Positions 12,952 through 57,802 of a DNA stretch of 64,000 bases are shown piece after piece. The translations under genes and the position numbers were made by a program. Every line of letters begins with the position of its first letter. Position 1 is the stretch's first letter. The stretch covers positions 62,001 through 126,000 of IMG/VR virus record IMGVR_UViG_3300010403_000705; one strand, 5' to 3'. The notes beneath the pieces were generated by a model, which saw nothing but the letters and a program-made list of their open reading frames with translations, was not told where the DNA came from and did no database searches. The DNA is from a virus.

Positions 12952-13228
12952 AAGATTATCACATTTTGACCTGGAAGTTAGAAATGGTCTTTGTAATATA
13001 GATATAATTCAACACTCTGATACTAAAGAGATGGTCTCTGAAGATATTGTAGATGATACAGATGCAAATTCTTTGCAAGTATGGTGGGAAATAGTATTCG
13101 AAACTTGTCAGTATGAAACTGGTGCTGATTTTTCCAATAAAAGTTCATTTGTAATCTATAAATTAGATGATCTTAATAGATTATCAGAAGCTTTCCAGAA
13201 AGCTATTAAGGAAACTCGTAACAGATGA
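12941..13228 (+). CDS. Small hypothetical protein (95 aa)
   Basis: ATG 12941 lies in the topA end with GGAG just upstream. An open extension exists further into topA but is unlikely to be used. The product is acidic in the middle (HSDTKEMVSEDIVDDTDANS) with an aromatic helix after it (LQVWWEIVFETCQYE). No recognised family. It overlaps the next start by four bases (ATGA). Confidence 0.6.
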   Translation: MKSKRLSHFDLEVRNGLCNIDIIQHSDTKEMVSEDIVDDTDANSLQVWWEIVFETCQYETGADFSNKSSFVIYKLDDLNRLSEAFQKAIKETRNR

Positions 13229-14570: not shown

Positions 14571-14900
14571 ATGTCTCAAAATGATACGTTAAACAAAATG
14601 AAGAAAACTTTTAAACAGGCAGTAAAAGGAGGTGAAACCGCAAGCCACGACTCAAAAAATAATGAAGCTGTATTAGCTCAACCATTAGAAGTCAGAGTCT
14701 ATAATAATAATTTTGATAGAGCACTACGAGCATTTAGAGCATTGGTGCAAAAAGAACGAATACTATCAACATATAAAGAAAAACAAACTTACGAAAAACC
14801 TTCTCAAAGAAAAAGAAGAAAACGTAATGAAATGAAAAGAAAACTCTTGGAAAACTCTGATAAACAAAGAGTGTACAAAAAGAGTGAAATTATAGAATAA
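14571..14900 (+). CDS. rpsU: Ribosomal protein bS21 with N-terminal extension
   Basis: Residues about 39-95 follow bS21 closely: VRVYNNNFDRALRAFRALVQ, then ILSTYKEKQTYEKPSQRKRRKR, against the family's VxNNNxxxALRxxKRxxxxxGIL...YEKPSxxRRRK. bS21 joins the 30S subunit near the anti-Shine-Dalgarno region and affects initiation. Viral bS21 genes are known in several phage groups. Here about 38 extra residues precede the domain. A phage copy could replace host bS21 and bias ribosomes to phage messages; that is inference. Preceded by a 26-bp gap without a strong ribosome-binding site. Confidence 0.85.
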   Translation: MSQNDTLNKMKKTFKQAVKGGETASHDSKNNEAVLAQPLEVRVYNNNFDRALRAFRALVQKERILSTYKEKQTYEKPSQRKRRKRNEMKRKLLENSDKQRVYKKSEIIE

Positions 14901-14914
14901 TTAGGAAAAAGATC

Positions 14915-15610
14915 ATGTCTAACAGAAGCGTTAAAATATTCAGAAATTCCGACAGGGATAAACCTGAGGTACATAAAAATTATGTACCTCAATACCAAAC
15001 AATGGGTATTGAGCCAGAAGAATTCAAAAGTGCTATGATATCAGGTGTTACTTCATCAAAAGTAAGTACTGAAATACCATTAACTAATCCACGAGCTAAA
15101 AGATCAGCTGTTAGACAACCTTATGCAAAAGTGATTCCTTCCCCGGTCGGAAGGGGAAGAGGTCCTGTGCCTAATGTTGGAAATAATATGGAGCATACTT
15201 GGTCTTCTGTAAATGGTGAAATCATAGACGATTTGTCAGAAGAGTCAATTGATGATCAAAAAAAAATGATTGACAATAATGATTTCGTAACTTCTAATGC
15301 ATTAGGAATTAATGATTCTTCAGAGTCTGAGTACTCTGAGGAGTATATAAAATCTTATATGACACAAAAAGATTTGCAAGAAGTAATTGAAGAAAAAGAT
15401 ACATCAAGCTTACTTGATGTCCAAGAAGATGAATATGTTTTGTTAATTAAAGGAATACTTTGTGAGATAGGTTCTTTTGATTTTATTCAAAATGAAGTAA
15501 AAAAAATAGTATTTTCAGAACACGAACTGTATAGAGAAAATACTATTTCTGTAGATGATTTAATAGTTTTGAAAAGAATAAAAATAAAGATAGGTGTGTT
15601 TTTAGAATAA
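14915..15610 (+). CDS. Hypothetical protein, partly disordered (231 aa)
   Basis: First half is low-complexity and basic with a PSPVGRGRGPVPN linker; second half is acidic and helical and may form a small domain (DEYVLLIKGILCEIGSFDFI). No recognised motif. Two perfect inverted repeats lie inside it, near codon 17 and near codon 200. A ribosome-binding site (TAGGAAAAAG) precedes the ATG. Confidence 0.55.
   Translation: MSNRSVKIFRNSDRDKPEVHKNYVPQYQTMGIEPEEFKSAMISGVTSSKVSTEIPLTNPRAKRSAVRQPYAKVIPSPVGRGRGPVPNVGNNMEHTWSSVNGEIIDDLSEESIDDQKKMIDNNDFVTSNALGINDSSESEYSEEYIKSYMTQKDLQEVIEEKDTSSLLDVQEDEYVLLIKGILCEIGSFDFIQNEVKKIVFSEHELYRENTISVDDLIVLKRIKIKIGVFLE
14965..14991. repeat. Intragenic perfect inverted repeat, 12-bp stem, 3-nt loop
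   Basis: Arms TGAGGTACATAA (14965-14976) and TTATGTACCTCA (14980-14991) are exact reverse complements, 50 bases after the start codon of the 231-aa gene. Confidence 0.85.
15504..15548. repeat. Intragenic perfect inverted repeat, 13-bp stem, 19-nt loop
   Basis: Arms AAATAGTATTTTC (15504-15516) and GAAAATACTATTT (15536-15548) are exact reverse complements, close to the 3' end of the 231-aa gene. Confidence 0.8.
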
Positions 15611-15619
15611 GGAGTTATC

Positions 15620-16372
15620 TTGGAAAAAGAACCTAGAAAAGCTTCTGAAATTCTTTTAGAATTAGAAGCTAAGATTGATGTGTTAACTAGTATAGTAAGA
15701 ACACAGGATCTTAATATTAAAATTTTATCTAATAAAGTTAATTCATTATTGGAATTAGAAAAATCAGATAAAGTCACATCATCTTCTATTAAAATTGAAG
15801 CAGTTGACACTATTCCGTCTAAAATAAATTCAGAGTTTTTGGAAAGACAAGTGTTAATAAATCCTAATTCACAATTACCCCAGGAACAAGAGCCTAAAGG
15901 TTTTAGGAGAACCTCCAGACCAGAAACTTATGCTGGTGATAACAGTTATCTAAAATCACCAGTGGTAAGTAATTCTAGAATTTCAGAAGACTTTACTAAA
16001 CTACAAGAACCGGAAGTAGTAGTTCCTAAGGAGGCAATGAATTTTACGGAAGTGCCAGTGCCTCTTAAAAAAGATAAATTGTCGTCATCTACAACTATAG
16101 TGCCAGTCGTACAGAGAATTGTAGATAAAAACGGTAAATCAGTATTTTTAGCAGATGTAGAAATATTACTTATGGAGAATAAGCAGTCTATTTCTAAAAC
16201 TAGAACTAATGGTGCGGGCAAATGGATGGCTTCTTTACCAATAGGACAATACAGAATTTTTGTTCGTAAAAGAGAATCAATAAATAAAGAAAAATTAGAA
16301 GTGATGCAAGATATTCAAGTGGATGGAACACAGTCGCCATTAGAATTGAAAACAATGATTATTAAATCTTGA
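15620..16372 (+). CDS. Coiled-coil protein with C-terminal carboxypeptidase-regulatory-like beta domain
   Basis: TTG start with GGAG six bases upstream. An N-terminal coiled coil (ILLELEAKIDVLTSIVRTQD) is followed by a Ser/Pro-rich linker. The last 85 residues match the transthyretin-like carboxypeptidase regulatory fold: a strand with DKNGKSVFLADVEILL, then TRTNGAGKWMASLPIGQYRI. Such domains occur in phage tail, fibre and surface proteins. A structural role is likely but unproven; the gene lies outside the main virion block. Confidence 0.6.
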   Translation: MEKEPRKASEILLELEAKIDVLTSIVRTQDLNIKILSNKVNSLLELEKSDKVTSSSIKIEAVDTIPSKINSEFLERQVLINPNSQLPQEQEPKGFRRTSRPETYAGDNSYLKSPVVSNSRISEDFTKLQEPEVVVPKEAMNFTEVPVPLKKDKLSSSTTIVPVVQRIVDKNGKSVFLADVEILLMENKQSISKTRTNGAGKWMASLPIGQYRIFVRKRESINKEKLEVMQDIQVDGTQSPLELKTMIIKS

Positions 16373-16417
16373 TTAACTTTGAGATATTGACATATATGCT
16401 TCTTTGGAGAAAAATAT

Positions 16418-17119
16418 ATGTCATCACAATTTCAAATTATAGTTGCCGATCCGCCTTGGGATTTTAATGATCTTTTAAAAATGTCAGATGTTGCACGAGG
16501 ATCTAAATCTAATTATCTCACCATGTCAATGTCAGACATTCAACATTTACCTATAAATAAATATGCAGATCCAAACGGTGCTATTCTAGCATTATGGGTT
16601 CCGTCTTCTTTATTACAAGAAGGTTTGAATGTTCTATCAGCATGGGGATTTACACATAAACAAACTTATGTATGGGTAAAAACAAAAATAAATCCATTTG
16701 TACACATTACTAAAGAATTTTTTAATAACATAAAAAAAATTTTAGATAAGAATAGTGCGTTGAGCCCTCGTGCTATAATTTGTATAAAAAATGCATTGTG
16801 TAAAACATACTCACTGGATAATATTTTATCTTTTGGCATGGGTCGTTTATTTAGGCAAACTCATGAAATTTGTTTAATCGGAGTGAACAACAATAAAATA
16901 TATAAAAAATTAAATAATAGATCACAAAGATCTGTATCATTTGCAGAAAATTTAAAACATTCTGCAAAGCCAGAATGTTTACAAAACTCTTTGGAATTAA
17001 TGTTTCCAGATTCAAATAAATTAGAATTATTTGCCAGAAGAATCAAACCTAATTGGGTTTGTTTAGGTAATGAAGTATGTAATGGAGAAGATATTACAGT
17101 CTCTCTCGCTAAATTATAA
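16418..17119 (+). CDS. MT-A70-family adenine methyltransferase
   Basis: The DPPW catalytic motif appears at once (IVADPPWDFN), followed by ALWVPSSLL, the W-rich strand THKQTYVWVKT, and the closing LELFARRIKPNWVCLGNEV. These are the hallmarks of MT-A70-like N6-adenine methyltransferases, which act on DNA in phages and bacteria. At 233 aa it is the catalytic domain alone, without a specificity domain. Likely role is protection from host restriction or epigenetic marking of phage DNA. A TTGACA lies upstream at about 16388, but no good -10 follows. Confidence 0.85.
   Translation: MSSQFQIIVADPPWDFNDLLKMSDVARGSKSNYLTMSMSDIQHLPINKYADPNGAILALWVPSSLLQEGLNVLSAWGFTHKQTYVWVKTKINPFVHITKEFFNNIKKILDKNSALSPRAIICIKNALCKTYSLDNILSFGMGRLFRQTHEICLIGVNNNKIYKKLNNRSQRSVSFAENLKHSAKPECLQNSLELMFPDSNKLELFARRIKPNWVCLGNEVCNGEDITVSLAKL
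16955..16980. repeat. Intragenic perfect inverted repeat, 10-bp stem, 6-nt loop
   Basis: AAACATTCTG (16955-16964) and CAGAATGTTT (16971-16980) pair exactly within the methyltransferase gene. Confidence 0.7.
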
Positions 17120-17150
17120 ATAATGTTAATTAGAGGATTATTGTGTAGTT

Positions 17151-17669
17151 ATGTCTAAAAAAACACTTTTATTAAATGCAAGTTATGAAGTGCTTTCCTT
17201 TATTCCAGAACGAAAAGTTTTTAAACTATTATTCTCTCCTAAAGATAAAGTAGAGGTAATTTCTTCCTGGGATGATGAAATTGTTTGGAGTAATGGTAGA
17301 GTGAAGCATCCTTCTATTTTAAGATTAAAAAACCATGTTAAAAGAAATTATTTTAACTCTAATTTTAGTCGTAAAGCGCTTATTAAAAGAGATAGAAGCA
17401 CTTGTCAATATTGCGGTAAAAAATTAACCGCCTCTCAAATAACTATAGATCATGTTTTACCAAGGGCTCAAAGAGGTATTACATCGTTTATCAATTGTGT
17501 GGTCTGTTGTCAAATTTGTAATAATAAAAAAGCAGATAGGACACCAGAGCAAGCATCTATGATTTTATTAAAAAAACCAACACATCCGTCTTTTTCCGCA
17601 CATCATTATCTTGCAGACCCTCAAGAGTTTTGGCATAAAGACTGGGATGATTTCTTGGGCTCATCTTAA
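17151..17669 (+). CDS. HNH endonuclease
   Basis: Carries a complete HNH/McrA-type nuclease: CQYCGKKL, then ITIDHVLPRAQRG with the catalytic His, FINCVVCCQICNNKKADRTP closing the zinc site and Asn/His pair. N-terminal 80 residues match the extension common in this HNH subfamily (LLLNASYEVLSFIPERKVF). It could be a free-standing homing nuclease or have a role in DNA processing. A strong terminator follows directly, so it ends a transcription unit. Confidence 0.85.
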   Translation: MSKKTLLLNASYEVLSFIPERKVFKLLFSPKDKVEVISSWDDEIVWSNGRVKHPSILRLKNHVKRNYFNSNFSRKALIKRDRSTCQYCGKKLTASQITIDHVLPRAQRGITSFINCVVCCQICNNKKADRTPEQASMILLKKPTHPSFSAHHYLADPQEFWHKDWDDFLGSS

Positions 17670-17673
17670 TAAG

Positions 17674-17709
17674 GAAAAAGTGGCAATATATACATATTGC
17701 CACTTTTTC
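17674..17709 (+). terminator. Rho-independent terminator, 16-bp stem
   Basis: GAAAAAGTGGCAATAT (17674-17689) pairs perfectly with ATATTGCCACTTTTTC (17694-17709) around loop ATAC. The A-tract on the left and T-tract on the right suit termination on either strand. It closes the topA-to-HNH gene run. Confidence 0.9.
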
Positions 17710-17762
17710 ATTCAATAATTATGAATACTATATAGTTTCCTTATGATATATAGGATGGCACT

Positions 17763-18014
17763 ATGACACAACAGGTAAGTTACAACTGTATAGTTTGCGC
17801 TAAAGAATTTGATAACACTGATGAGTTGCATTCTGTAGCTTTGTCTAAAATTAATGTAACTAAATTTAAAATTTGCCAATCCTGTTTAAATATATCTGAT
17901 CCATCAGATGATTATTTACAAGTTCGTAAAATAGTAAATTCTTATGCGGAAACTACAGAAGCAAAACATTATTTTGAAGCAGTCAAAGAAATAATTGATT
18001 CTATCAAGAAATGA
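17763..18014 (+). CDS. Small Cys-rich protein (83 aa)
   Basis: A CIVC near residue 10 and a CQSC near residue 38 form a likely zinc knuckle, followed by an acidic helix. The ATG comes 53 bases after the terminator, with AGGATGG just upstream. First of several small zinc-ribbon proteins in this stretch. Function unknown. A 7-bp palindrome at 17894-17909 lies inside. Confidence 0.6.
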   Translation: MTQQVSYNCIVCAKEFDNTDELHSVALSKINVTKFKICQSCLNISDPSDDYLQVRKIVNSYAETTEAKHYFEAVKEIIDSIKK

Positions 18015-18087
18015 TTATAATATTTTTTTTATCTTTGTATCTTATTTTGTGATAATAGTGACACCTTCAATATAATAGAATATTAAT

Positions 18088-18285
18088 ATGATCTGTGCAA
18101 ATTGCTCTAAACTAGCGTCTTTGAACACCAGTAAATCGTGTCTAAAATGTGGTAATAGTATATTTAATAATCTATCTGTAATATGTAATAAATGTTCGGA
18201 TGTTGACAAGCAATGTGTCGTGTGCTTAAAAAGAATGTTACCTACTAATAAATTAAGCAAAGGCTGTGGATGTGGTGGGAAATAA
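18088..18285 (+). CDS. Small multi-cysteine zinc-ribbon protein (65 aa)
   Basis: Four CxxC-type pairs (CANC, CLKC, CNKC, CVVC) and a CGCGGK end, so two or more zinc sites in 65 residues. Composition resembles double zinc-ribbon proteins that bind nucleic acid or protein partners. Next to peptide deformylase, three bases upstream of its start, so they probably share a message. Confidence 0.6.
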   Translation: MICANCSKLASLNTSKSCLKCGNSIFNNLSVICNKCSDVDKQCVVCLKRMLPTNKLSKGCGCGGK

Positions 18286-18288
18286 AAT

Positions 18289-18837
18289 ATGATTATTAAA
18301 AATGATGAAGAGTTACTAAGAATTAAATGTGATAATGTAACTGAAGATGAAGTTGGATCACTTATTGAATTGTTAGAAAATGAATTAAATGCAGCTAATA
18401 GGCTGGGTGTGGAAGGTATAGGATTATCAGCTATTCAAGTGGGTGTGCGTAAGAATATTGCTATTGTTAGATTAAAAGATATATCTTTTAACTTAGTAAA
18501 TTGCACAATCAATCAAGCTTATGATCCTGCTATTTTTAGACAAGAAGGATGTTTATCATTTCCTGGACGAGTAGAAGATACTATAAGATTCCAAGAAATT
18601 CACGTTGTTGATAATTTAGTGTATCCTCACAATTTTATAGCTACTGGTCTATTATCTGTAATATGCCAACACGAAATTGATCATTTGAATGGTGCATTAT
18701 TTATGGATCGTGTGAATAGTATAAATACAGTTTCAAGAAAAAAAAATAAGCTTGGACCAAATGATCTTTGTATTTGTGGCAAAGTAGATCCACGTACTAA
18801 ACATCCTAAAAAATTTAAAAAATGTTGCGGTAAATAG
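18289..18837 (+). CDS. def: Peptide deformylase fused to a C-terminal SEC-C motif
   Basis: All three deformylase motifs are present: GIGLSAIQVGV (GxGxxAxQ), EGCLSFPG with the metal-binding Cys, and CQHEIDHLNG with the HExxH metal site. The enzyme removes the formyl group from nascent N-termini. After about 150 residues comes GPNDLCICGK ... FKKCCGK, a SEC-C zinc motif with a short insert. SEC-C is known from SecA and YecA, where it binds SecB or the ribosome. Phage deformylases are common but normally lack any C-terminal zinc tail. Ends in TAG. Confidence 0.9.
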   Translation: MIIKNDEELLRIKCDNVTEDEVGSLIELLENELNAANRLGVEGIGLSAIQVGVRKNIAIVRLKDISFNLVNCTINQAYDPAIFRQEGCLSFPGRVEDTIRFQEIHVVDNLVYPHNFIATGLLSVICQHEIDHLNGALFMDRVNSINTVSRKKNKLGPNDLCICGKVDPRTKHPKKFKKCCGK

Positions 18838-19160
18838 TGAATTTATATAATTTATTTAATATAAATCTTCCGGTATGTTTTTATTGTTCATCTAAATGTA
18901 TTTCTCGAGGTCACAATATATTTTGTTGTGAGATATGTAAACATGAATATTTAAAAAATGATGTTTGTTTTGTGATGCAATGTAAAGATATTTTTATTAC
19001 ACATTCTCCGTTCGTGCCTTATCATTTTTCTATAGCATATAAAGAGTGGGATACTAAAAATGATTTTTCTGTACAGATAGAAATTCCATCATTTGATATA
19101 ACTAAAATGGATGAAGAAAAACTTTATAATAAAATAAAATTATATATAACGTTTACTTGA
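18837..19160 (+). CDS. Small Cys-rich protein (107 aa)
   Basis: GTG start overlapping the deformylase stop. Cysteine pairs CFYC, CEIC and single Cys between suggest a zinc finger in the first 45 residues; the rest is beta-rich. Overlap with def implies coupled translation. No family recognised. Confidence 0.55.
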   Translation: MNLYNLFNINLPVCFYCSSKCISRGHNIFCCEICKHEYLKNDVCFVMQCKDIFITHSPFVPYHFSIAYKEWDTKNDFSVQIEIPSFDITKMDEEKLYNKIKLYITFT

Positions 19161-19166
19161 GGGCGT

Positions 19167-19385
19167 ATGGATAAAAAACAAGCAAAAGAATTAACTAATG
19201 ATGTATTGATTGCTGATGTTCTAATTAGATTGAAAGCGATAGAGACTTTATTAATTGCAAAAAATATTTGTACCGAAGAAGAGTTAAAAAAGCAAATAAA
19301 GAGTGTAACAGAATTAATAACTCTTTCTATTTTGCAAAAATCAAATGTATCGGGTGATTTAAATAAAATTATTCAAGAATTGTGA
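19167..19385 (+). CDS. Small helical hypothetical protein (72 aa)
   Basis: Two-helix protein with a MDKKQAKELTNDVLIADVLI start. No recognised motif. GAGGGCGT before the ATG serves as ribosome-binding site. Three bases separate it from the thioredoxin-like gene. Confidence 0.5.
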   Translation: MDKKQAKELTNDVLIADVLIRLKAIETLLIAKNICTEEELKKQIKSVTELITLSILQKSNVSGDLNKIIQEL

Positions 19386-19388
19386 TAA

Positions 19389-19697
19389 ATGTACTATTTA
19401 ACTCAAGAATGTGATTTAATTATAAGTGATAAAGTGCAAGTTTTGTATTTTTATGCAACATGGATGCCACATCATAACAAGATGTTATCAATGATAGATA
19501 AAATGGAGCAAAAATATAAAAATGTAGAATTTATTGCAATTGATGTCGATTTTTTCAAAAATTTATGCAAACGTTTTGAAGTAGAATCTATTCCAATAGT
19601 TATTATATTAAACAACGGAAAAGCCATTAAAAGGATTGAAGGGTTAGTATTAACGAGTGCATTTAAAAATGCATTTGCTGATATATTTAAATTATAG
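19389..19697 (+). CDS. Thioredoxin-fold protein lacking the active-site cysteines
   Basis: Size (102 aa) and order of elements are those of thioredoxin: VQVLYFYATW strand, IDVDFFKNLCKRFEVESIP with the cis-proline, and VIILNNGKAIKRIEG. The redox site, normally WCGPC, reads WMPHH, so no dithiol chemistry is possible. Such variants act as structural or binding subunits; T7 uses host thioredoxin as a polymerase processivity factor, which shows one possible non-redox role. Confidence 0.75.
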   Translation: MYYLTQECDLIISDKVQVLYFYATWMPHHNKMLSMIDKMEQKYKNVEFIAIDVDFFKNLCKRFEVESIPIVIILNNGKAIKRIEGLVLTSAFKNAFADIFKL

Positions 19698-19706
19698 GAG
19701 ATGATA

Positions 19707-20003
19707 ATGAATAAAAAAAATAAAGAACATCAATCTAAAAACAATCCACCAGCTTTGAGATCAGAATCAGAAAAAATATGGAATGAAATTAAAAACTTAA
19801 AACTAGAAATGTTTACTTTGCCTAATCAATTTGTATATATGTATTACAAACCAATTACTATTGATCCTGCTAAATTACATTTAACTGCTTTAACTTCAGC
19901 TACTTCAGTTTTACCTGCATTAGAAAATGCATTATATCCTCAATATCAAGTTGAGCAAGTTGATAGATTTATTCTTGTTACTCTAGCACCAGTAAAAAAA
20001 TGA
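19707..20003 (+). CDS. Small hypothetical protein (98 aa)
   Basis: AGGAG at 19696-19700 is correctly spaced for ATG 19707, not for the ATG at 19701. Mixed fold with a YMYYKPITIDPAKLHLTAL strand region and a short helix. Not recognised. Confidence 0.55.
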   Translation: MNKKNKEHQSKNNPPALRSESEKIWNEIKNLKLEMFTLPNQFVYMYYKPITIDPAKLHLTALTSATSVLPALENALYPQYQVEQVDRFILVTLAPVKK

Positions 20004-20009
20004 GGAATT

Positions 20010-20504
20010 ATGCCATTTGATGAAGAAGATGAAAAACCATCGAATTATCCTCCAAAGGTAGCTTTAAAAAAAGTTAGCACCCAAAAATCTATTTTTGAGA
20101 CTCAACCTAGAAAACCTTCTGCGGAAGAATTTGAAAAAAAAGTACAACAAGTTCAAGATAGAGCATTTAGTTATAAAACTAAGGCTGCCGAATTAGCTTT
20201 GCAATTTAATAAAGCAATGACTGATCGTACTCTTAAATCTAATAAAACTGTTTTTTCTATTGAGATTGAACAAGATTTGCTTGCGAAAATGATTCAATTA
20301 GCCATCGAAATAAATGCTGACCCTATAGAACAAGAAGGAATGGGATCATTAAGTTGGATTACTTTATTATTAAAAACTTGTTTTACGCAAAGGGATAGAA
20401 TAAATTTTCTAGAATATTCTTTATCGCAAATTGATAAAAAAATGGAATCAATAATTATTCGAGAGATTAATAAATCTCTTGACAAGAAAAAGAACAATGA
20501 ATAA
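20010..20504 (+). CDS. Hypothetical protein (164 aa)
   Basis: Disordered charged N-terminus followed by helices (FEKKVQQVQDRAFSYKTKAA) and a charged C-terminal helix. GAGG precedes the ATG. No recognised motif. Lies just upstream of the primase zinc-finger gene. Confidence 0.55.
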   Translation: MPFDEEDEKPSNYPPKVALKKVSTQKSIFETQPRKPSAEEFEKKVQQVQDRAFSYKTKAAELALQFNKAMTDRTLKSNKTVFSIEIEQDLLAKMIQLAIEINADPIEQEGMGSLSWITLLLKTCFTQRDRINFLEYSLSQIDKKMESIIIREINKSLDKKKNNE

Positions 20505-20507
20505 GTT

Positions 20508-20687
20508 ATGGTAACTAAGGAATTATTATTATTTCTCATTTCCGAGGAAAAAGAAAATTTTAGTAGGTATTCACAGTTATGTACAAATTATCAAATTTCT
20601 CTGGACCCGTTAGCAGTAGCCAAACATCAGGGTATTATGGAGATTCTACAGAAACTTCTACAGGAAAAAAATTCTACCAGGACTTGA
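20508..20687 (+). CDS. Possible small gene overlapping the start of the primase zinc-finger gene (59 aa)
   Basis: An open frame from ATG 20508 to TGA 20685-20687 encodes a helical peptide (ISLDPLAVAKHQGIMEILQK). It overlaps the first 109 bases of the next gene in another frame. Its last bases overlap an in-frame TTG (20684) that could start the primase zinc-finger protein just before its conserved part. No good ribosome-binding site. Either this is real and the downstream start is TTG 20684, or the frame is accidental. Confidence 0.3.
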   Translation: MVTKELLLFLISEEKENFSRYSQLCTNYQISLDPLAVAKHQGIMEILQKLLQEKNSTRT

Positions 20688-21205
20688 TAAGAAAAGCAGA
20701 TTCAGTACCAATAACTAGATTATTTAAACATTATAATTTACGAATTAATGATCAAAATAGAAAAATAATATGTCCTTTTCCTACTCATAAAAGTGGAAGA
20801 GAAAGTTCGCCTTCTTTTTATTTTTATCCACAAACTAATAGTTTTTGGTGTTTTGGATGTAAAATAGGAACAAGATGCTGCGATTTAATTGCTAATATGG
20901 AGAATATTTCCAGAACTAAAGCAGCATTTAAAATATTAGAGTTGTTTAAATCTGATGTAGATGATGATGCTGTTTTGATTGATAGAGATAACTTTTCTGA
21001 AAAGTTATCTCTAATGTTGAGTTTTTCTGAGCATGTTAGAAACTTTATACATTATAATAATGATGAAAAATCTTTATTATTCATCGACCATGTGTGTGAG
21101 GTTTATGATACGGTAAATGCAAAGCATCATTTGAGTAATGATGCTTTGCAATCTGTAATAAGTCAATTAAAAGAAAAGATAGATTCTTATACATTATATG
21201 TCTAA
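20579..21205 (+). CDS. Primase zinc-binding (CHC2) protein, split from the catalytic core
   Basis: Contains the CHC2 zinc finger of DnaG-type primases: ICPFPTHKSGRESSPSFYFY then FWCFGCKIG, which binds the template and licenses primer initiation. No TOPRIM domain follows; the catalytic core is a separate gene at 43840. The first 35 residues are Ser/Thr/Gly-rich, and a TTG at 20684 is an alternative start just before the conserved part. Two perfect hairpins (14 and 13 bp) lie in the 3' half. The end overlaps sbcD by eight bases. Confidence 0.8.
   Translation: MYKLSNFSGPVSSSQTSGYYGDSTETSTGKKFYQDLIRKADSVPITRLFKHYNLRINDQNRKIICPFPTHKSGRESSPSFYFYPQTNSFWCFGCKIGTRCCDLIANMENISRTKAAFKILELFKSDVDDDAVLIDRDNFSEKLSLMLSFSEHVRNFIHYNNDEKSLLFIDHVCEVYDTVNAKHHLSNDALQSVISQLKEKIDSYTLYV
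20983..21013. repeat. Intragenic perfect inverted repeat, 14-bp stem, 3-nt loop
   Basis: TAGAGATAACTTTT (20983-20996) and AAAAGTTATCTCTA (21000-21013) are exact reverse complements in the primase zinc-finger gene; no T-run follows. Confidence 0.9.
21118..21150. repeat. Intragenic perfect inverted repeat, 13-bp stem, 7-nt loop
   Basis: TGCAAAGCATCAT (21118-21130) and ATGATGCTTTGCA (21138-21150) are exact reverse complements, 50 bases before the sbcD start. Confidence 0.9.
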
Positions 21206-22397
21206 TATCATTATACTTGGAGATCCACATTTAGGAAAAAGCTTATCTCAGGGCAGAGTTGGCATTGGGTCTAACTTAAATAGTCGTATTGTAGATCAGC
21301 TTAATCTTCTTGATTGGACCTTGGATCAAGCAATAGATTTATCTATAGATCATATAGTAATAACAGGAGATATTTTCGAAGATCCTAGACCACCTCCTTC
21401 ATTAATTACTTTATTCATTTCTTGGTTAAAAAAATGCCAAGCTAATTCTGTGCATGTTCATTTAATTTTGGGCAACCATGATATACTGCGCAGTGGTTTT
21501 ATTTACTCCTCTCCATTAGATATTATTAGTGAGGTAGAATTAGAAAATGTTGATGTGTATAAAAATATTAATACAATCACTATTGATACAACTGCTATAA
21601 CTTTAATGCCGTTTCGAGATCGAAAAGCCCTAGGAGCATCAACAAATAGTAATGCTCTTTCTTTACTAAAAGAATATTTAGTATATGAATTAGCTAGTAT
21701 GCCTATTACTTATAAAAAAGTTTTAATAGGACATTTAGCTATCGAAGGCTCTATTCCTATTGGTGATGAAATTGATGATATAAGTAATGAATTATTTTGC
21801 CCATTAGATATGTTTAATGGTTATGATTACGTTTGGATGGGGCATGTGCATAAGCCCCAAATTATGAAAAAACAGAAACCATATATTGCACATATTGGTA
21901 GTATGGATATTTCTAATTTTGCCGAAATCGATCACAGTAAACATATAATTATACTTAATTGTTCTTCAAATCAAGAATTTATAACAAAAAAGTTACCGAC
22001 TAGACCATTAAAAAAAATATCTATTGTAATTCCCAAATTTGTTGAAGATACTACTAAGTACGCTATTCAATGTATTAAAGATATGAATAAAGATTTGAAC
22101 AAATCTACAATAAGAGTGGAAATTGCACTAGAAAGCCCTGAACTACAATCAATTGACAAATCTGCAATAGAAAAATACTTAATTAATCAAGGCGTTTTTA
22201 ATATTACTGGTATCTCGGAATCTAAAAAAGCTATTTTGATAAAAAAAGATAATTATAATACTCTGGATACCAAAATAGATGTACCATCCGCCATTAAAAA
22301 ATATAGTTCCATTTATGTAGAAGAAAATCAAAGGTCTGATTTTATCAACTTAGCTATGGAAATTTATAATTCTTATAAGGTTGAATTAAAAGAATGA
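21198..22397 (+). CDS. sbcD: SbcD/Mre11/gp47-type nuclease subunit
   Basis: All metallophosphoesterase motifs are in order: GDPHLG, TGDIFED, LGNHD, IGHLAIEG and MGHVHKPQ. This is the nuclease half of the SbcCD (Mre11-Rad50, T4 gp47-gp46) complex that resects ends and opens DNA hairpins. At 399 aa it is of normal size, with a C-terminal part for binding SbcC. The start overlaps the primase zinc-finger gene and its stop overlaps sbcC (ATGA). SbcCD cleaves long palindromes in E. coli, which is relevant given the many inverted repeats here. Confidence 0.9.
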   Translation: MSNIIILGDPHLGKSLSQGRVGIGSNLNSRIVDQLNLLDWTLDQAIDLSIDHIVITGDIFEDPRPPPSLITLFISWLKKCQANSVHVHLILGNHDILRSGFIYSSPLDIISEVELENVDVYKNINTITIDTTAITLMPFRDRKALGASTNSNALSLLKEYLVYELASMPITYKKVLIGHLAIEGSIPIGDEIDDISNELFCPLDMFNGYDYVWMGHVHKPQIMKKQKPYIAHIGSMDISNFAEIDHSKHIIILNCSSNQEFITKKLPTRPLKKISIVIPKFVEDTTKYAIQCIKDMNKDLNKSTIRVEIALESPELQSIDKSAIEKYLINQGVFNITGISESKKAILIKKDNYNTLDTKIDVPSAIKKYSSIYVEENQRSDFINLAMEIYNSYKVELKE

Positions 22398-24610
22398 AAC
22401 CATCAAAATTATATATTGAAAATTTCATGTGCCACGAAAAAAGTTATATTGATTTCGCGGAATTTAATTCCGCGCTCATTGTAGGAAAGATAGAGAATAA
22501 TGAAAATTATTCTAATGGTGTTGGTAAAACATCTATATTTAAGGCAATTGAATATGTATTGTTTAATCAAGCAGACATTAATTTAGAAAAAATTATAAGA
22601 GATGATACTAATTTTTGTAGAGTAGTATTTGATTTTTTTGTAGGAGATCAAGAATATCGTATTTCTCGTAAAAGAACAAAAAAAGGTGTTACTGATCTAA
22701 CTTTATTGCACAAAAATACGATTATTGGTGATGTATCAGAAGTTTATCATACTAATTATGATGAAACGTATGAGCCATTAAGTAATGAAAAATATTGGAA
22801 AGATATTTCTGGTAGAAGATCCGCTGATACAGAAAAAGAGTTAGAAAAATTAATAAAGATTAATTTTAAATCCTTTAGAAGTACAGTGCATTTTTTACAA
22901 AATGATTTTTCAGGACTTACTACTTCTACTCCAGAAAAAAGAAAAGCTTTATTTAAGGACGCTTTAAATTTAATTATTTATTCTAAATTAGAAAAAATAG
23001 CAAAAGACAAAGCTAATGTGATATCCAAAGATTTAGAAAAACATAAAATATTAATAGATTCTTTAGGTGATGTTAAAACAGATATTAACAAATTACAACA
23101 GCAATGTTTGTTACTAGAAGAACAATTGGATCATAATAATAAATTGTTAATTGATCCAACTAATCAACTAAATGTAATAAACAACAATTTATCAAATTTA
23201 AATTCTTCTTATAAAGATCTAGAAAATAAATATAATATTTTATTAGAGAAAGAAAAATCAATTTTATCTGATAAAGTAAGAATAGAAAATTCTATTACAG
23301 AATATCAAAACAAAAAAACAATAGCCATCAAAACGGCAAAAAATATTGTTGATGACATCAAAAATTCCAAAGAAACACTTAAATCATTAAGTGAAATTGA
23401 TCTAAACCAAATAGAGATCTTAAATGATAAAATAAATGAACTTAAACAAAAGATAACTTATTACAACATCATTATACAGAACAATATCGTAGAATTTGAA
23501 GAATTAAAAATACCCGTTCCTGACGAAAGTATCTGTAAACATTGTCGCCAATATATGACAGATGAGCATAAGAAAATCTGTAAGTCCAAGATCATTCAAG
23601 ATATGGATAAATGTCAGCAGAATATCTCTATGGCAAAAAAAGAAATATCTATTTTTAGTAACGAAGTAAATATTCTACAACAAAAGTTAAGTGCTTTGAT
23701 TCGATGTAAACAACAAATAGAAGATATAAATAATAAGATTTTATCAAAAAATATAGATTTGCAAAACAAAAAGAATATTCATAATGAATATTCGTTATTA
23801 GTAAATAAATTTACAGAAGATCTCAAAATAAAAGAAAGTGAATATTCATTATTAAAAAGTGAATTATCTAATTCTTCTTTATTAGAAGCTAAATTTATTC
23901 AGGAATCTATTAATGTTCAAAACCAAAATATGGTTAAAGTACAATCATGTATAGCTTCTATAAATAAAGAAATAGCGCATTTAAATGCATCCAAGGCTGT
24001 AGCGCTATATACTATAGATGAAAAAACAAAAGATTTATTAAAAATAGATTTTCTAAGGAATAAAATTCAAGAGCTAGAAAAAAAATATAGTATATATCCA
24101 CAAGTTCTGCAAGCTTTTTCCTCTACTGGAATACCAAATCTAATAATTCAAAATGTACTCGATGATTTACAAGCAAAAGCTAATACATTATTATCGCAAT
24201 TAAAACCTGGTTTACAGTTATCTTTTCTTATAGAAAAAGTAAAAGGAGATGGCACTGAAGCAGATACTTTAGATATTCATTATAATGTAAATGGAAAGGA
24301 AAGATATTATGAGCAGTTATCTGGTGCCATGAAGTTAGCGGTAACTTTTAGTTTAAAGCTTGGATTATCTTTTCTTTTGCAGGAAATGGTAGGTACTGAT
24401 ATTAAGTTCTTATTATTAGATGAAATAGATCAATCACTGGATAAAGCAAGTGTAGATGCATTTGCAGATATTGTGAAATTTTTTCAGAAAGACTTCACGA
24501 TATTAATCATTACTCATAATGATAGATTAAAAGATAAATTTTCACATGCTATATTAGTGGAACAAGATGTCAATATGATATCTAGAGCTAAGGTAGTCAG
24601 TAATTGGTAA
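22394..24610 (+). CDS. sbcC: SbcC/Rad50/gp46-type ATPase subunit
   Basis: Walker A in YSNGVGKTSIFKAIEYVLF near residue 45, long coiled coils, a zinc hook CKHC near the middle, an ABC signature region QLSGAMKLAVTFSLKLGL and Walker B FLLLDEIDQSLD, then an ITHND switch. Together with SbcD it forms the ATP-driven end-processing complex. At 738 aa the coiled coils are shorter than in E. coli SbcC (1048 aa) but longer than in T4 gp46 (560 aa). Confidence 0.9.
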   Translation: MKPSKLYIENFMCHEKSYIDFAEFNSALIVGKIENNENYSNGVGKTSIFKAIEYVLFNQADINLEKIIRDDTNFCRVVFDFFVGDQEYRISRKRTKKGVTDLTLLHKNTIIGDVSEVYHTNYDETYEPLSNEKYWKDISGRRSADTEKELEKLIKINFKSFRSTVHFLQNDFSGLTTSTPEKRKALFKDALNLIIYSKLEKIAKDKANVISKDLEKHKILIDSLGDVKTDINKLQQQCLLLEEQLDHNNKLLIDPTNQLNVINNNLSNLNSSYKDLENKYNILLEKEKSILSDKVRIENSITEYQNKKTIAIKTAKNIVDDIKNSKETLKSLSEIDLNQIEILNDKINELKQKITYYNIIIQNNIVEFEELKIPVPDESICKHCRQYMTDEHKKICKSKIIQDMDKCQQNISMAKKEISIFSNEVNILQQKLSALIRCKQQIEDINNKILSKNIDLQNKKNIHNEYSLLVNKFTEDLKIKESEYSLLKSELSNSSLLEAKFIQESINVQNQNMVKVQSCIASINKEIAHLNASKAVALYTIDEKTKDLLKIDFLRNKIQELEKKYSIYPQVLQAFSSTGIPNLIIQNVLDDLQAKANTLLSQLKPGLQLSFLIEKVKGDGTEADTLDIHYNVNGKERYYEQLSGAMKLAVTFSLKLGLSFLLQEMVGTDIKFLLLDEIDQSLDKASVDAFADIVKFFQKDFTILIITHNDRLKDKFSHAILVEQDVNMISRAKVVSNW

Positions 24611-24625
24611 AACAAAAGGTAAATT

Positions 24626-24895
24626 ATGAATACAGAAGAATTTGAAGCAGCGGTACGCGCAGAATGTAATACTCTTGCTGATATGTTGGTAGAAAAAAAT
24701 CGTGCTTATGGCAATAGCGCTTTATCGCCTGTACGTATTTTTTCAAAATCTCCTATTGAAGAACAAATCCTTGTGCGTATAGATGATAAATTATCTCGTT
24801 TAGCACGAGGAAACAACGCTGGTGAAGATGTAATATTTGATCTCTTAGGATATTTAATTTTGTTACGCATCGCTCGACAATCTAAAAAGCTATAA
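24626..24895 (+). CDS. Nucleotide modification associated domain 1 (DUF1599-type) protein
   Basis: Contains the family signature: KNRAYGNSALSPVRIFSKS then LVRIDDKLSRLARG and DLLGYLILLRIA. Known mostly from phages, where it is linked by context to base modification; its reaction is not established. The 89-aa length equals a single domain. Starts after AAAGGT upstream. No base-modification enzymes other than the MT-A70 methylase are visible nearby. Confidence 0.75.
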   Translation: MNTEEFEAAVRAECNTLADMLVEKNRAYGNSALSPVRIFSKSPIEEQILVRIDDKLSRLARGNNAGEDVIFDLLGYLILLRIARQSKKL

Positions 24896-24927
24896 AATAG
24901 TATCGTTATTTTGACATTTAATAAAAT

Positions 24928-24954
24928 GATAACAAATCATGTTATCTTAAAATA
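24928..24954 (+). promoter_or_regulatory. Inverted repeat overlapping a candidate promoter element
   Basis: GATAACA (24928-24934) and TGTTATC (24940-24946) pair exactly around AATCA. The right arm is part of TGTTATCTTAAAATA (24940-24954), nearly identical to the element before topA. TTGACA lies at 24911-24916 but not at standard spacing. It could be an operator on a promoter 20 bases before the next start. Confidence 0.4.
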
Positions 24955-24973
24955 ATTGAATGTGTAATACAAA

Positions 24974-25954
24974 ATGACTGTTATTAATTTAACCATTACT
25001 GAATCGACCGAACAAGTAATTGCGGATATACCAAAAACAATTACTATCACTTCTAATATTCCTGCTTCCATTTTTTATACATTAGATGGAACTATTCCTA
25101 CCTTATTTTCCAATATTTATACTGAAGCCATTTTTTTACCAATTAATAAATTATCTGTTACATTAAGTATATTTGCAAGTAATGGAGTAGATTCATCACC
25201 TATTATTACAGAGGTATATGTAACAAATGTATTAGATAATGCTAGGTTGGCACATTCTGCAACAGATGTCCAACCTAATGTTAGTATTCCGGATTTGTAT
25301 CCATTTGGAACAAATCCGCAACAACCAGTTGGGCATTATTTGAACCCAGGTGATGCTGGGGTAAATGTTAATGATCCTTCTTTACCTGTTGTTGCTTCAG
25401 GATTCGATGCTGATGGCAATCCTAGTGTTTTTACTAATCAAGATTTTACAACAGAAAATTATAATATAGTATATTCAAATAGAGATGCTATTGGGCAACC
25501 AAATGTAGGAATTTTGCCAGCTCCTGTTAAAATACAAAATGCAGTGCCGGAACCAGAAGCTAGTGAACAATTTACTACTTTATTTGATCCAAGAGCGTTT
25601 GTAATTTTTCAGGATTTTTCTAAAGAAAATCCTGAAGATCCTATACACATAAATAGACAATTCTTTACTTTAGAAAACCATGAAAAAACTCGTGATGGAA
25701 ATGCATTTTTCACTAGTGGTTTAGATGCACCTGCTGTTAGTGGTTCATTTTTAAGATCACATTATAATCCCAGGGATAATACTATTACTTATTATTATTT
25801 AGATACCTGGAGTAATAGATGGATTATTTCCAAAACACCATATCAGCCAACAGGAAGTTTTGATGGTAATTTATCTGCTATGGCATTCGCGAGAAACGGT
25901 GGTGCAGGAATAGTATTTGAATGGTTGCCTTTTACTAGAAGAGTATTATTTTAA
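24974..25954 (+). CDS. Probable virion/surface protein with chitobiase-like beta-sandwich domain
   Basis: The first 90 residues match the chitobiase/hexosaminidase C-terminal Ig-like domain: ITSNIPASIFYTLDGTIPT, then the SNIYTEAIFL strand. This domain is frequent in phage structural proteins. The remainder is Gly/Pro/Asn-rich with aromatic strands near the end (TITYYYLDTWSNRWIISKTP). Such architecture suits a tail or capsid decoration protein. It stands apart from the main structural block under its own candidate promoter. Confidence 0.55.
   Translation: MTVINLTITESTEQVIADIPKTITITSNIPASIFYTLDGTIPTLFSNIYTEAIFLPINKLSVTLSIFASNGVDSSPIITEVYVTNVLDNARLAHSATDVQPNVSIPDLYPFGTNPQQPVGHYLNPGDAGVNVNDPSLPVVASGFDADGNPSVFTNQDFTTENYNIVYSNRDAIGQPNVGILPAPVKIQNAVPEPEASEQFTTLFDPRAFVIFQDFSKENPEDPIHINRQFFTLENHEKTRDGNAFFTSGLDAPAVSGSFLRSHYNPRDNTITYYYLDTWSNRWIISKTPYQPTGSFDGNLSAMAFARNGGAGIVFEWLPFTRRVLF
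25608..25636. repeat. Intragenic perfect inverted repeat, 11-bp stem, 7-nt loop
   Basis: TTCAGGATTTT (25608-25618) and AAAATCCTGAA (25626-25636) are exact reverse complements inside the virion-like gene. Confidence 0.8.
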
Positions 25955-25963
25955 GTATTTAAT

Positions 25964-26290
25964 ATGAAACAAAAAAGTGGACAAGAAATATTTTATACTG
26001 ATATCAATGTTATGATAACATCTATTAAACAATTTACGCAAGATAATTGTGCATATGTAGAAATTCACGATGATCTAAAAAGATTATATTATGGTTGGTT
26101 TTGTCCAAAAACTAATACATATTTTTATATGCAAGCTTCTCATTTTAGAAATCAAAGAAAAGGTCTCGCCCTACCTTTTGATTCATATTTAAAAAGAAAA
26201 ATAGCTAGTATACCATTGAGTAATTGTAAAAATGATAAAGAATATAATTCTCTTAAAGAAAAACTTAATAAATTGAAAGCATTTTGGTGA
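25964..26290 (+). CDS. Hypothetical protein ending in LKAFW (108 aa)
   Basis: Small alpha/beta protein with an aromatic core (RLYYGWFCPKTNTYFYMQAS). Not recognised. Its last five residues, LKAFW, are identical to the end of an unrelated 148-aa protein at 40111. No ribosome-binding site beyond a weak TTTAAT leader is seen. Confidence 0.55.
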   Translation: MKQKSGQEIFYTDINVMITSIKQFTQDNCAYVEIHDDLKRLYYGWFCPKTNTYFYMQASHFRNQRKGLALPFDSYLKRKIASIPLSNCKNDKEYNSLKEKLNKLKAFW

Positions 26291-26298
26291 CGTTTAGT

Positions 26299-26562
26299 AT
26301 GATTAATTATTTACCGTGGAAAAAAATAAACGAAATACTTTATGAAAAAAGGTGTATAGATAATAGTCATACATCAAGTATTAAGTTGAGATATCATTGT
26401 AATGGTTATGGTTGGGTCCCAGAATTTTATAATAAATTAATGGGAGATCTGTATATACAGTATAATCCAGATTATTATATATCTATTATTGATATACATT
26501 ATGTAACACAATATATAGACAATTTTATAAATAGATACAATAATTTATTAGTATTTATGTGA
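26299..26562 (+). CDS. Small hypothetical protein (87 aa)
   Basis: ATG 26299 is correctly spaced after GGTGA; an in-frame TTG at 26284 would overlap the previous gene further. Aromatic-rich (RYHCNGYGWVPEFYNKLMGD). No recognised motif. Confidence 0.5.
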   Translation: MINYLPWKKINEILYEKRCIDNSHTSSIKLRYHCNGYGWVPEFYNKLMGDLYIQYNPDYYISIIDIHYVTQYIDNFINRYNNLLVFM

Positions 26563-26605
26563 GTTATATATACTATAACACTATAAATATGAAAAGACGT
26601 GTAAT

Positions 26606-27394
26606 ATGTCTAATGAATTACGATTATCTGTTAGTAAAACAAAGACATTCTTAGATTGCAAGGCAAAATATAAATATTCATATATTGAAAAATTGCCTAA
26701 AAAAGATTGGGAATTTCATACATTTGGTAAATTTTGTCACAAGGTGTTGGAAGATTTTCATAATGCATATATTAATGGCTCATCAGAGCCATATAATATA
26801 GTAATGTCAAAAGCATTTAAAGATTCATTGAATGAATATAAATCTGTTATGACAACAGAAATGAGGCGAGATTGTTGGAAAATTATTGATCAATACTTAA
26901 AAATTGTAAGTAGTGATAAAAAAAATAATTTATCTGCCAATGTTATTGCTTGCGAAAAAAATTTCGAATTTTTAGTAGGCGGTAAAGTTATTTTAAATGG
27001 TATGATTGACAGGATACAAATTGATGACGATAATGTAATACATGTTTGTGATTATAAAACAGTCAAAAATAAAAAATATTTAAAAAATGATTTTTTCCAA
27101 TTATTAACATACGCATATGTTATAATTTCTGAAGACCCTTCAATTGAAAAAGTTCGCGCCTCATATATTTTGCTTAGACATGATTTTGAATATATTACTA
27201 CTGAATTTACTGTTCCAGAAATTTTGAAGATTCAAGATAAGTATCTTGAATATGCTAATCAGATTTTAAAAGAAAAAGAATATGCTCCCAATCCAACTGC
27301 TTTGTGTAATTTTTGTGATTATTTGAATATGTGTCCAGAAGGTAAAGCAAAGTCTTATGGGCAGAATATTTATGGAGAGGTAACGTATGGGTAA
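26606..27394 (+). CDS. PD-(D/E)XK nuclease, Cas4/RecB-like
   Basis: Begins with the RecB-family helix LSVSKTKTFLDCKAKYKYSY, has the catalytic HVCDYKTVKN (DYKT in place of D-ExK), then QLLTYAYVI, and a C-terminal CNFCDYLNMC that completes the cysteine set of Cas4-type iron-sulphur nucleases. Cas4/AddB-like exonucleases make 3' overhangs for recombination. With SbcCD upstream and RecA downstream a role in phage recombination is natural. No CRISPR array is present. A TATAAATA lies 17 bases before the ATG. Confidence 0.85.
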   Translation: MSNELRLSVSKTKTFLDCKAKYKYSYIEKLPKKDWEFHTFGKFCHKVLEDFHNAYINGSSEPYNIVMSKAFKDSLNEYKSVMTTEMRRDCWKIIDQYLKIVSSDKKNNLSANVIACEKNFEFLVGGKVILNGMIDRIQIDDDNVIHVCDYKTVKNKKYLKNDFFQLLTYAYVIISEDPSIEKVRASYILLRHDFEYITTEFTVPEILKIQDKYLEYANQILKEKEYAPNPTALCNFCDYLNMCPEGKAKSYGQNIYGEVTYG

Positions 27395-27590
27395 CAATTA
27401 CTATTTTACATACGAAACTAATCAGTATAAAATATATTACATGTACGAAGCACCTACTCCACATAGATTAGATGGACCCGCAATTGAATACGCAAATGGC
27501 ACAAAAGTGTGGTGTTATAAGGGAAAAATTATATCCTGTTCTTCACAAGAACAATTTGAAAAATATTTAAAAATGAAAATTTTTTGGTAA
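27387..27590 (+). CDS. Small DGPA-motif protein (67 aa)
   Basis: Contains PHRLDGPAIEYANGTKVWCY, a single copy of the DGPAxxxxxGxxxW repeat seen in many phage and some bacterial proteins; function unknown. Starts inside the Cas4-like gene with GAGAGG upstream. Ends in KIFW, close to the KAFW tail of two other small proteins. Confidence 0.6.
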   Translation: MGNNYYFTYETNQYKIYYMYEAPTPHRLDGPAIEYANGTKVWCYKGKIISCSSQEQFEKYLKMKIFW

Positions 27591-27608
27591 AAAGGAACGA
27601 AAATAATT

Positions 27609-27968
27609 ATGAAATACAGTGAAATTGCTCATTTAAAGAAAAAAATGATGACTATGTTAGAAAATGCCGTTGATCAATGTTTAAATCAATTACAAGCTAA
27701 TGAGCATGTCCAAGCAGCTAAAGCACAAATTAAAGCTAATGAAGAAGGTCACGCTGGAACAACTGATATTGTAGATTTACAACCAGGTTATTTTGATGCT
27801 GCGTTAGCTTTAGATTTCCCAAAGGGCTACGGTACGAATGGTGAGGGATTTGTTATTGTTTGCAATCCTGTCATTACATTAAAAGATGTGTATAGAAAGA
27901 TGGATGCGCAAAATTATAGTCATAAAATAATGAGTGATAAATTGCGTCAAGCAAAAGAAAACAAGTAA
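27609..27968 (+). CDS. Hypothetical protein (119 aa)
   Basis: Helical N-terminus (KKKMMTMLENAVDQCLNQLQ) and a mixed C-terminal half (GYGTNGEGFVIVCNPVITL). AAAGGAACG precedes the ATG. Not recognised; it lies just ahead of trigger factor. Confidence 0.55.
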   Translation: MKYSEIAHLKKKMMTMLENAVDQCLNQLQANEHVQAAKAQIKANEEGHAGTTDIVDLQPGYFDAALALDFPKGYGTNGEGFVIVCNPVITLKDVYRKMDAQNYSHKIMSDKLRQAKENK

Positions 27969-28059
27969 CATTTATTTTTTTCTAAGAAAATTTAAGACCT
28001 TTAAATAGTAACAAAATATCTTAGAGGGTACGAATAAATCAGATATAAAGGAAAATAAT

Positions 28060-29307
28060 ATGGAGATAAATGTAAAAGAATTAGAGCCATGTAAGTTAAG
28101 CATTCAGTACATCGCGGATGCCGGAGAAATTCTTGAAAAACGTGCGCAAATTTTACAAGTCTTTAAGAAAGCTCCTGTTCCTGGATTTAGACCAGGGAAA
28201 GGAACTTTAGATGCAATTAAGATTCATTACAAAAATCAAATTGAAGAATCTTTGAAACGCGGTTTAGCAGAAGATGCTTATCATAATACTATTTTTGAGA
28301 AAAAATTAAGACCTCATGGAGCGCCATTTTTTAAGTCTCTGATGATAGCTGATGGAAAATTTACTTGTGATTTTGATTTACATGTTAAACCTGATTTTGA
28401 ATTGGCTCCTTATAAAGAATTAGAAATACCAAAACCTCACGAAGATTTTTCTTCAGTAGAATTCAGTGAGAAAATATTACAAGAATTAAGACGTAAATTT
28501 GGAGATGCTTATCCATATACAGAAAATGATTTTGTGCAAGATAGTGATAATGTAATTATTGATTATCAAGGTACTGTGGACGGTGTAAAAATAGATAATT
28601 TGTCGGCACAGGGAGAAATGCTAACTGTAGGTCGTAGTCAATTACTAAACTTTGATGATAATTTATTAGGCATGGTTTTAGGAGAGACAAGAGAATTTGA
28701 TGTTAAAGTGCCAGAGAATGGTTTACCATCTTTAGCTGGTAAACTAGTTCATTTTAAAGTTACTCTTAATATGGGTTCTAAAACTGAATTATGCGCACTT
28801 GATGACTCCTTAGCTGTAAAAATGGGAAAAAAAGATTTCTCCGAACTAAAAGAATTTGTACATGCAGCTGCTATGAGCAGAACTTCTAACAGTTCCAAAC
28901 TAGCATTAAATGAAGCCATAACAAACAGATTAGTGAATGATAACAAATTTGCGGTTCCCAATTGGTTGAGCTTATCTGAAGCGCGTTATTTAGCACATAA
29001 CTCAAAGATGGATTGGGAAACTATGAATGATGTCGATAAAGAAAAATATTTGCAAATGGCGGAAAGTAATGTTAAATTATCTCTAATTTTAGATAGAATT
29101 AGAGATTTAGAGCCAGAAGCACAAATAACTGATCAAGAAGTTTTCGATATTGTTAAACAAAATTTAACTAAAATGAATAATCAAAAATCTATTGATGATA
29201 CTATAAAAGAAATGAATAGAACTGGCTATCTGCAAATTCTATTTTCTAGAATTAAAGATGAGTTTGTGTTAGATTTTATAACCAAAAGCGTTAAAGTAAT
29301 TGAATAA
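28060..29307 (+). CDS. tig: Trigger factor
   Basis: Full-length ribosome-associated chaperone (415 aa; E. coli 432). The ribosome-binding signature is GFRPGKG at residues 42-48, the same place as the FRK tip of E. coli. The FKBP-like prolyl isomerase domain is present (DNVIIDYQGTVDG; LNFDDNLLGMVLGETREFDV), and the helical arms follow. It would dock at ribosomal protein L23 and fold nascent chains. GGA precedes the ATG, and TATCTTAGA occurs 35 bases upstream. Complete phage-encoded trigger factors are rare in my knowledge. Confidence 0.9.
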   Translation: MEINVKELEPCKLSIQYIADAGEILEKRAQILQVFKKAPVPGFRPGKGTLDAIKIHYKNQIEESLKRGLAEDAYHNTIFEKKLRPHGAPFFKSLMIADGKFTCDFDLHVKPDFELAPYKELEIPKPHEDFSSVEFSEKILQELRRKFGDAYPYTENDFVQDSDNVIIDYQGTVDGVKIDNLSAQGEMLTVGRSQLLNFDDNLLGMVLGETREFDVKVPENGLPSLAGKLVHFKVTLNMGSKTELCALDDSLAVKMGKKDFSELKEFVHAAAMSRTSNSSKLALNEAITNRLVNDNKFAVPNWLSLSEARYLAHNSKMDWETMNDVDKEKYLQMAESNVKLSLILDRIRDLEPEAQITDQEVFDIVKQNLTKMNNQKSIDDTIKEMNRTGYLQILFSRIKDEFVLDFITKSVKVIE

Positions 29308-31382: not shown

Positions 31383-31552
31383 AAGTAGCGCGACAAATGT
31401 AAATTAGAAAAGTTTTTTAAAGAGTTTAATGTTAGTCGTAAATTGTATTCCCTGATATACATACGTAATCTATATAATATAAATTATAGCGCTTTATAAT
31501 AAATAAGACAGATATGTAATTTCAAAATACTTTAAGTAATAAGGTAATGTTT

Positions 31553-57745: not shown

Positions 57746-57802
57746 TTCAATGATATATTATTTCTTGAGTATAGGGTATAGTTATTGAATTAATGAGGCT
57801 GC

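Follow-up and report, generated by a model that had tools for sequence, protein, structure and literature searches.

The DNA analysed here, referred to as the window, is a 64,000-nt stretch (positions 62,001 to 126,000; G+C content approximately 30%) of IMG/VR virus record IMGVR_UViG_3300010403_000705, a 432,844-bp phage whose sequence outside the window was annotated in part. Three genes on the plus strand of the window are the subject of this study: those for a homologue of ribosomal protein bS21 (positions 14571–14900), a peptide deformylase with a C-terminal SEC-C-like motif (18289–18837) and a three-domain trigger factor (TF; 28060–29307). An initial annotation, made from the letters of the window, had named these genes and had viewed them as a phage set acting at the ribosome. 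The names are upheld, since all three products match the corresponding Pfam families above the cut-offs, and the interval 14571–29307 runs from the start of the bS21 gene to the end of that for TF.

The TF chain contains a ribosome-binding N domain, an FKBP-type domain and a helical C-terminal chaperone domain, whose Pfam matches (Trigger_N, 8.7e-19; FKBP_C, 3e-5; Trigger_C, 3.6e-6) each lie above their own cut-off. An AlphaFold2 model of the protein (pLDDT 86.4) predicts the full TF fold. It matches Escherichia coli TF (Tig; PDB 1w26) with a Z score of 19.8 over 398 residues and a root-mean-square deviation (rmsd) of 8.2, the latter value being read as domain movement, and the N domain matches the E. 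coli ribosome-binding domain with a Z score of 12.9 and an rmsd of 2.3 over 114 residues. The phage protein is like Tig in its three-domain architecture, its GFRxGK docking loop and its full-length fold, but differs in its low identity (approximately 20%), in the frequent replacement of the last proline of GFRxGxxP, in the loss of the FKBP FxGG motif and in forming a long branch of its own.

The docking loop was compared among 41 phage TFs, with identities as low as 33%. All 41 have its G and R; the F is retained by 37 of them, and the next G by 40. GFRxGK is found in the window TF, where the final proline of GFRxGxxP is threonine; proline occupies that position in 11 of the 41 relatives. In the FKBP site, the equivalent of F198 is retained and the bacterial FEGG has become IDNL. 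Because the FxGG site is lost, the prolyl isomerase activity of the phage TF appears doubtful. The relaxation of the FKBP site and of the final proline would suit a role away from the ribosome, in which the phage TF helps phage structural or replication proteins to assemble, or acts as their holdase, and the docking loop is no longer needed for ribosome binding. In bacteria, free TF dimers hold clients. It may be added in favour of such a role that the phage gene is located among replication and repair genes and that the title of PDB entry 3gty mentions assembly activity. However, the four loop residues G, F, R and G are among the most conserved positions in the family, and we consider an off-ribosome role unlikely.

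The deformylase (Pfam PF01327, 4.8e-26) has intact metal motifs (GIGLSAIQ, EGCLS and HEIDH; compare GxGLAAxQ, EGCLS and HEXXH), and the key residues are invariant in 17 sequences. It shares the three motifs and the deformylase fold with E. coli Def and with the enzyme of phage Vp16, but differs from both at the C-terminus, where the structure model places a low-confidence linker and then the SEC-C-like motif, with no sign of the usual long C-terminal helix. In E. coli deformylase, it is the C-terminal helix that tethers the enzyme to the ribosome. The phage motif is similar to the C-terminal metal-binding domain of SecA in its CxCGS...KKYKKCC pattern, and differs from that domain in being fused to a deformylase. 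The Pfam SEC-C model scores above its cut-off in five of the seven records that were compared at first, and all of 17 clade sequences share the cysteines. The copy in the window is split by a seven-residue insertion and was for that reason missed by Pfam, though CxC and CC are retained.

On its own, the SEC-C module of SecA co-sediments with ribosomes; the tail of SecA that bears it crosslinks to uL23 (PMC6620043), which is the docking site of TF on the ribosome (PMC8185961). By analogy, it is reasonable to infer that SEC-C may be a replacement ribosome tether of the phage deformylase. SEC-C tails (GRNxPCxCGSGKKYKKCC) were also observed on the deformylases of many other phage contigs (L081-L110, L114, L120, L123 and L130), so the tail is not unique to the clade described below, and another large set of deformylases has a cysteine-free GRNDK...KYKKA tail at the same C-terminal place. 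A second deformylase-like gene in the record (L022:1384-1908, around G000:C1:345888-346289) has lost its metal motifs (SNCGS and HEIEN).

The bS21 homologue matches Pfam PF01165 (Ribosomal_S21) at 8.5e-15, with a score of 54.7 bits (cut-off, 27). An alignment of the clade proteins reveals, ahead of the S21 domain, an N-terminal extension of approximately 39 residues with a conserved KGG element. Extensions of this kind are known on the bS21 proteins of huge phages, and have been proposed to aid in competitive binding or in the selection of phage mRNA (PMC7162821). A metatranscriptome study of other phages tied bS21 to late replication (PMC9723584).

TF-bearing viral contigs were collected beginning with close relatives of the phage, followed by 33 contigs, 23 more from contigs picked for deformylase or bS21 and a further 14 by means of a divergent profile, for a total of approximately 70, some of them near-duplicates. 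It is apparent that every viral record of 100 kb or more that bears TF (32 of 32) also has the genes for bS21 and deformylase, with the order and strand of the three genes unchanged; TF identity among these records falls as low as 33%. The median spacing is 3.9 kb from bS21 to deformylase and 9.7 kb from deformylase to TF. The order PDDEXK nuclease–TF–DNA polymerase III is found in 49 of 49 clade loci. When terL was used as a neutral marker, the gene set was present on 14 of the 15 contigs that are 100 kb or longer; the remaining contig extends just 11 kb upstream of terL, so that the block would lie beyond its end. The edge of the clade is sharp, in that no TF was found in the 20 contigs whose deformylase or bS21 is no more than remotely related. 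The presence of every gene in a fixed order across dozens of related phages is not attributable to chance. These results identify bS21, deformylase and TF as core genes of one huge-phage clade, inherited vertically, and their co-occurrence as one ancestral acquisition long retained, rather than repeated independent assembly.

In a search for co-occurrence such as the initial annotation had suggested, all 22 clade records tested proved to have DnaJ and 20 of them ClpP, in addition to the 32 of 32 for the three genes jointly. No excess of this joint occurrence beyond what the individual gene frequencies would give can be calculated, because the records derive from one clade and one vertical inheritance and so are not independent.

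Additional data bear on the integrity and origin of the three genes. The ratio of non-synonymous to synonymous substitution rates (dN/dS) ranged from approximately 0.05 to 0.23 across the three genes, most pairs having a dS close to saturation; for the closest TF pair (90% identity) it was 0.05. The genes are intact and under purifying selection. In a quick tree, the phage TFs form one supported branch, separate from the sampled bacterial TFs, with a long branch of their own; the sampling of bacterial TFs was limited by the pattern search used, so the donor lineage cannot be named. Contamination as the source of the TF gene was ruled out by the gene context, the phylogeny and the dozens of relatives. 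The lone 'bacterial' TF in the phage branch is from JAIXLO010000160.1 (L393 / L477-L478), a 383-kb contig in a Chitinophagales metagenome-assembled genome. It carries the whole phage block in order, and is therefore a phage contig and a member of the clade. Its binning into that assembly is a weak hint of a Chitinophagales host. Shine-Dalgarno-like motifs, present for 35% of genes as compared with 8% in controls, do not settle the host.

The initial annotation had noted that the three genes are within 15 kb of one another. Their proximity does not point to a unit devoted to the ribosome, since the genes lie inside a conserved DNA-replication block and are interrupted by unrelated genes. Between and around them are genes for a topoisomerase, an MT-A70 methylase, an HNH nuclease, a thioredoxin, a primase-like protein, SbcD, SbcC, a PDDEXK-like nuclease and DNA polymerase III, some of which were named by eye from the sequence rather than by family search. 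With the MT-A70, HNH, thioredoxin, primase-like, SbcCD and PDDEXK genes intervening, there is no contiguous ribosome operon; bS21, deformylase and TF are spread through a replication and recombination block and have no operon of their own. The constant neighbours of TF, both on the plus strand, are the PDDEXK-nuclease-like gene upstream (26606–27394; named from sequence, not by family search) and that for DNA polymerase III alpha downstream (31547–35074). A small zinc-ribbon-like protein (18088–18285, plus strand), with no Pfam match above the cut-off, is encoded directly 5′ of the deformylase, a position kept in relatives.

This arrangement lends some weight to the idea that bS21, deformylase and TF are independent supply genes, each topping up a host function that the phage shuts off or that becomes limiting late in infection, without a coordinated takeover and with their neighbourhood reflecting nothing but the strict gene order of the clade. 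Unrelated replication genes separate the three, the synteny covers the whole block and not just these genes, and deformylase and bS21 are each found alone in other phages. It is more difficult to reconcile with that idea the perfect joint retention of all three genes across deep divergence, or the extra, ribosome-tether-like tail on the deformylase, and we regard it as improbable, though deserving of serious consideration.

Genes for protein turnover and folding were also identified, all on the plus strand. The initial annotation had listed DnaJ, 'ClpPR' and an M41 peptidase as partners of the three ribosome factors in the life of the nascent chain. Pfam confirms the first two: DnaJ (42533–43477; DnaJ, 2.1e-16; DnaJ_C, 1e-18), with a zinc domain that scores below its Pfam cut-off, and two ClpP paralogues. 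The term 'ClpPR' is apt, because the first copy (4529–5113; 6.5e-46) is ClpR-like and has lost the catalytic Ser and His in the alignment; the second (5110–5709; 3.8e-49) retains both residues, Ser and His being the members of the triad that were scored. The third (29941–30606), located downstream of TF in near relatives, is a stand-alone M41-like peptidase that contains HEAGH, with no AAA domain in the same chain, but its score of 28 bits falls below the Pfam cut-off of 29.9. The record also contains a transfer-messenger RNA (tmRNA; L321:15645-15997, G000:C1:55645-55997) that scores 110 bits (gathering score, 47) and has the tag ANDNAFVPMAQAA. ClpP and M41 are degradation functions, which may or may not extend to nascent chains. 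DnaJ and ClpP would need host partners, since neither a phage DnaK nor a clear unfoldase was found, and presumably work with them.

The presence of TF, DnaJ and ClpP could be viewed instead in terms of counter-defence, as decoys or stabilisers directed against host defences that sense or depend on chaperones; DnaJ is reportedly required for an anti-phage NLR-like protein, discussed in PMC12619734. Such a function would leave bS21 and the deformylase unexplained, and the core-gene status of the set favours a housekeeping role, so that this explanation seems very improbable.

The data are probably best explained by a fixed, vertically inherited gene set for protein synthesis and early folding, whose products act in sequence at the ribosome. 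On the motifs and folds described above, the most plausible sequence is as follows. Phage bS21 would join host small subunits and bias initiation. SEC-C, in place of the C-terminal helix, would tether the phage deformylase near the tunnel exit, where formyl groups would be removed from the surge of phage N-termini. The phage TF would dock at the exit by way of its GFRxGK loop and aid the folding of long phage proteins, with little or no prolyl isomerase activity. Clients of DnaJ would be handed to host DnaK, and failures, including chains tagged by the phage tmRNA, would be cleared by ClpP together with unfoldases of the host. The initial annotation's placement of the factors at the ribosome is supported to the extent that the TF docking motif is kept and that the deformylase bears a SecA-type SEC-C; its further proposal, control of three consecutive steps in the life of the nascent chain, is a possibility that goes beyond these features. 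Ribosome binding, timing and the division of labour among the phage factors are what we infer from these features. A more specific proposal, which we put forward tentatively, is that host ribosomes marked by phage bS21 are serviced by the SEC-C-tethered deformylase and the phage TF, which compete with or displace host factors at uL23, so that maturation becomes phage-owned.

Several observations weigh against action in sequence at the ribosome. The block consists mainly of replication and recombination genes, and its synteny may reflect general genome conservation. The SEC-C of the window deformylase carries its insertion, and the deformylases of contig L080 and two related records (G043 and G044) have no SEC-C tail. 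The FKBP-site residues of TF are partly lost (FEGG to IDNL), and ClpP is missing in two clade records. No HSP70/DnaK was found in the phage record, nor any clear ClpX/ClpA-type unfoldase, the sole AAA_2 match being below the cut-off and in an intein-containing AAA protein.

The novelty of the phage TF was assessed in several collections. TF matches in 50,697 reference phage records were unannotated or misfiled, and eight of the nine inspected adjoin clpP or clpX, as on bacterial chromosomes. The annotated TF of Acinetobacter phage MD-2021a was rejected as a phage gene, its order (metX-leuA-tig-clpP-clpX) being that of a chromosome, as were seven of the eight unannotated matches inspected, which adjoin clpX or clpP; the eighth was not judgeable in this way. 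Phage-filed records with a TF match include CAKLQH020000005.1, OR844993.1 and several MT83xxxx, with clpP or clpX adjacent in those inspected. Three remote matches in the viral collection, 46–48% identical to bacterial TF, were likewise set aside; two of these also adjoin clpP/clpX. A search of viral structure models with TF gave no match at E ≤ 0.001 among the models in that library. One PHROGs family of unknown function, phrog_26774, matches TF (1.9e-32), so that a TF of a virus or prophage may have gone unrecognised before. No published phage TF, and no paper naming both 'trigger factor' and 'huge phages', was found in a literature search whose scope left out most subscription journals and all preprints. 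A survey of Southern Ocean viral proteins for TF reported none (PMC8407431).

The huge-phage sets for redirection of translation described by Al-Shayeb et al. (2020; PMC7162821) are similar to the present one in containing N-extended bS21, deformylase, tRNAs and tmRNA, but the main text of that paper is without TF, Clp or chaperones, whereas TF is a core gene here. The phages with bS21 that Chen et al. (2022; PMC9723584) described combine it with chaperones and Clp protease; the main text is without deformylase or TF, and bS21 has structural genes as neighbours in those phages, in contrast to the replication genes found here. The full combination appears to be unreported, as the initial annotation had supposed, with TF found in no bona fide reference phage, in no model of the viral structure library and in none of the papers searched.

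Other features of the window and record may be mentioned briefly. Terminase- and portal-like genes are located at 55877–59626. An AAA ATPase gene (13225–14544) and that of the M41-like peptidase, as separate genes, resemble a split FtsH. Another AAA-type ATPase gene (L320:14201-16357 = G000:C1:34201-36357) contains an apparent intein with a LAGLIDADG-like domain at the Walker A site. An Rfam search of the window detected no RNA element. The record has approximately 40 tRNA genes, including one with a CUA anticodon (L321:18637-18710 = G000:C1:58637-58710); coding density with TAG read as sense gave no clear signal of recoding.

Parts for the initiation and elongation of translation and for N-terminal processing were already known from phages, but no record was found, in any virus, of TF, the chaperone that stands first at the ribosome exit. 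The observation made in the initial annotation was right, and is more general than could be seen from the window alone. The SEC-C–deformylase fusion, found in other phages too, constitutes a separate lead. TF is a new component in phage translation takeover and belongs to the core genes of an entire clade of huge phages, situated in a block with a deformylase that bears an apparent, different ribosome tether. It may be that the phages of this clade themselves supply the helpers of newly synthesised proteins, and the question is raised of whether phage takeover extends, besides initiation, to folding and processing at the tunnel exit.

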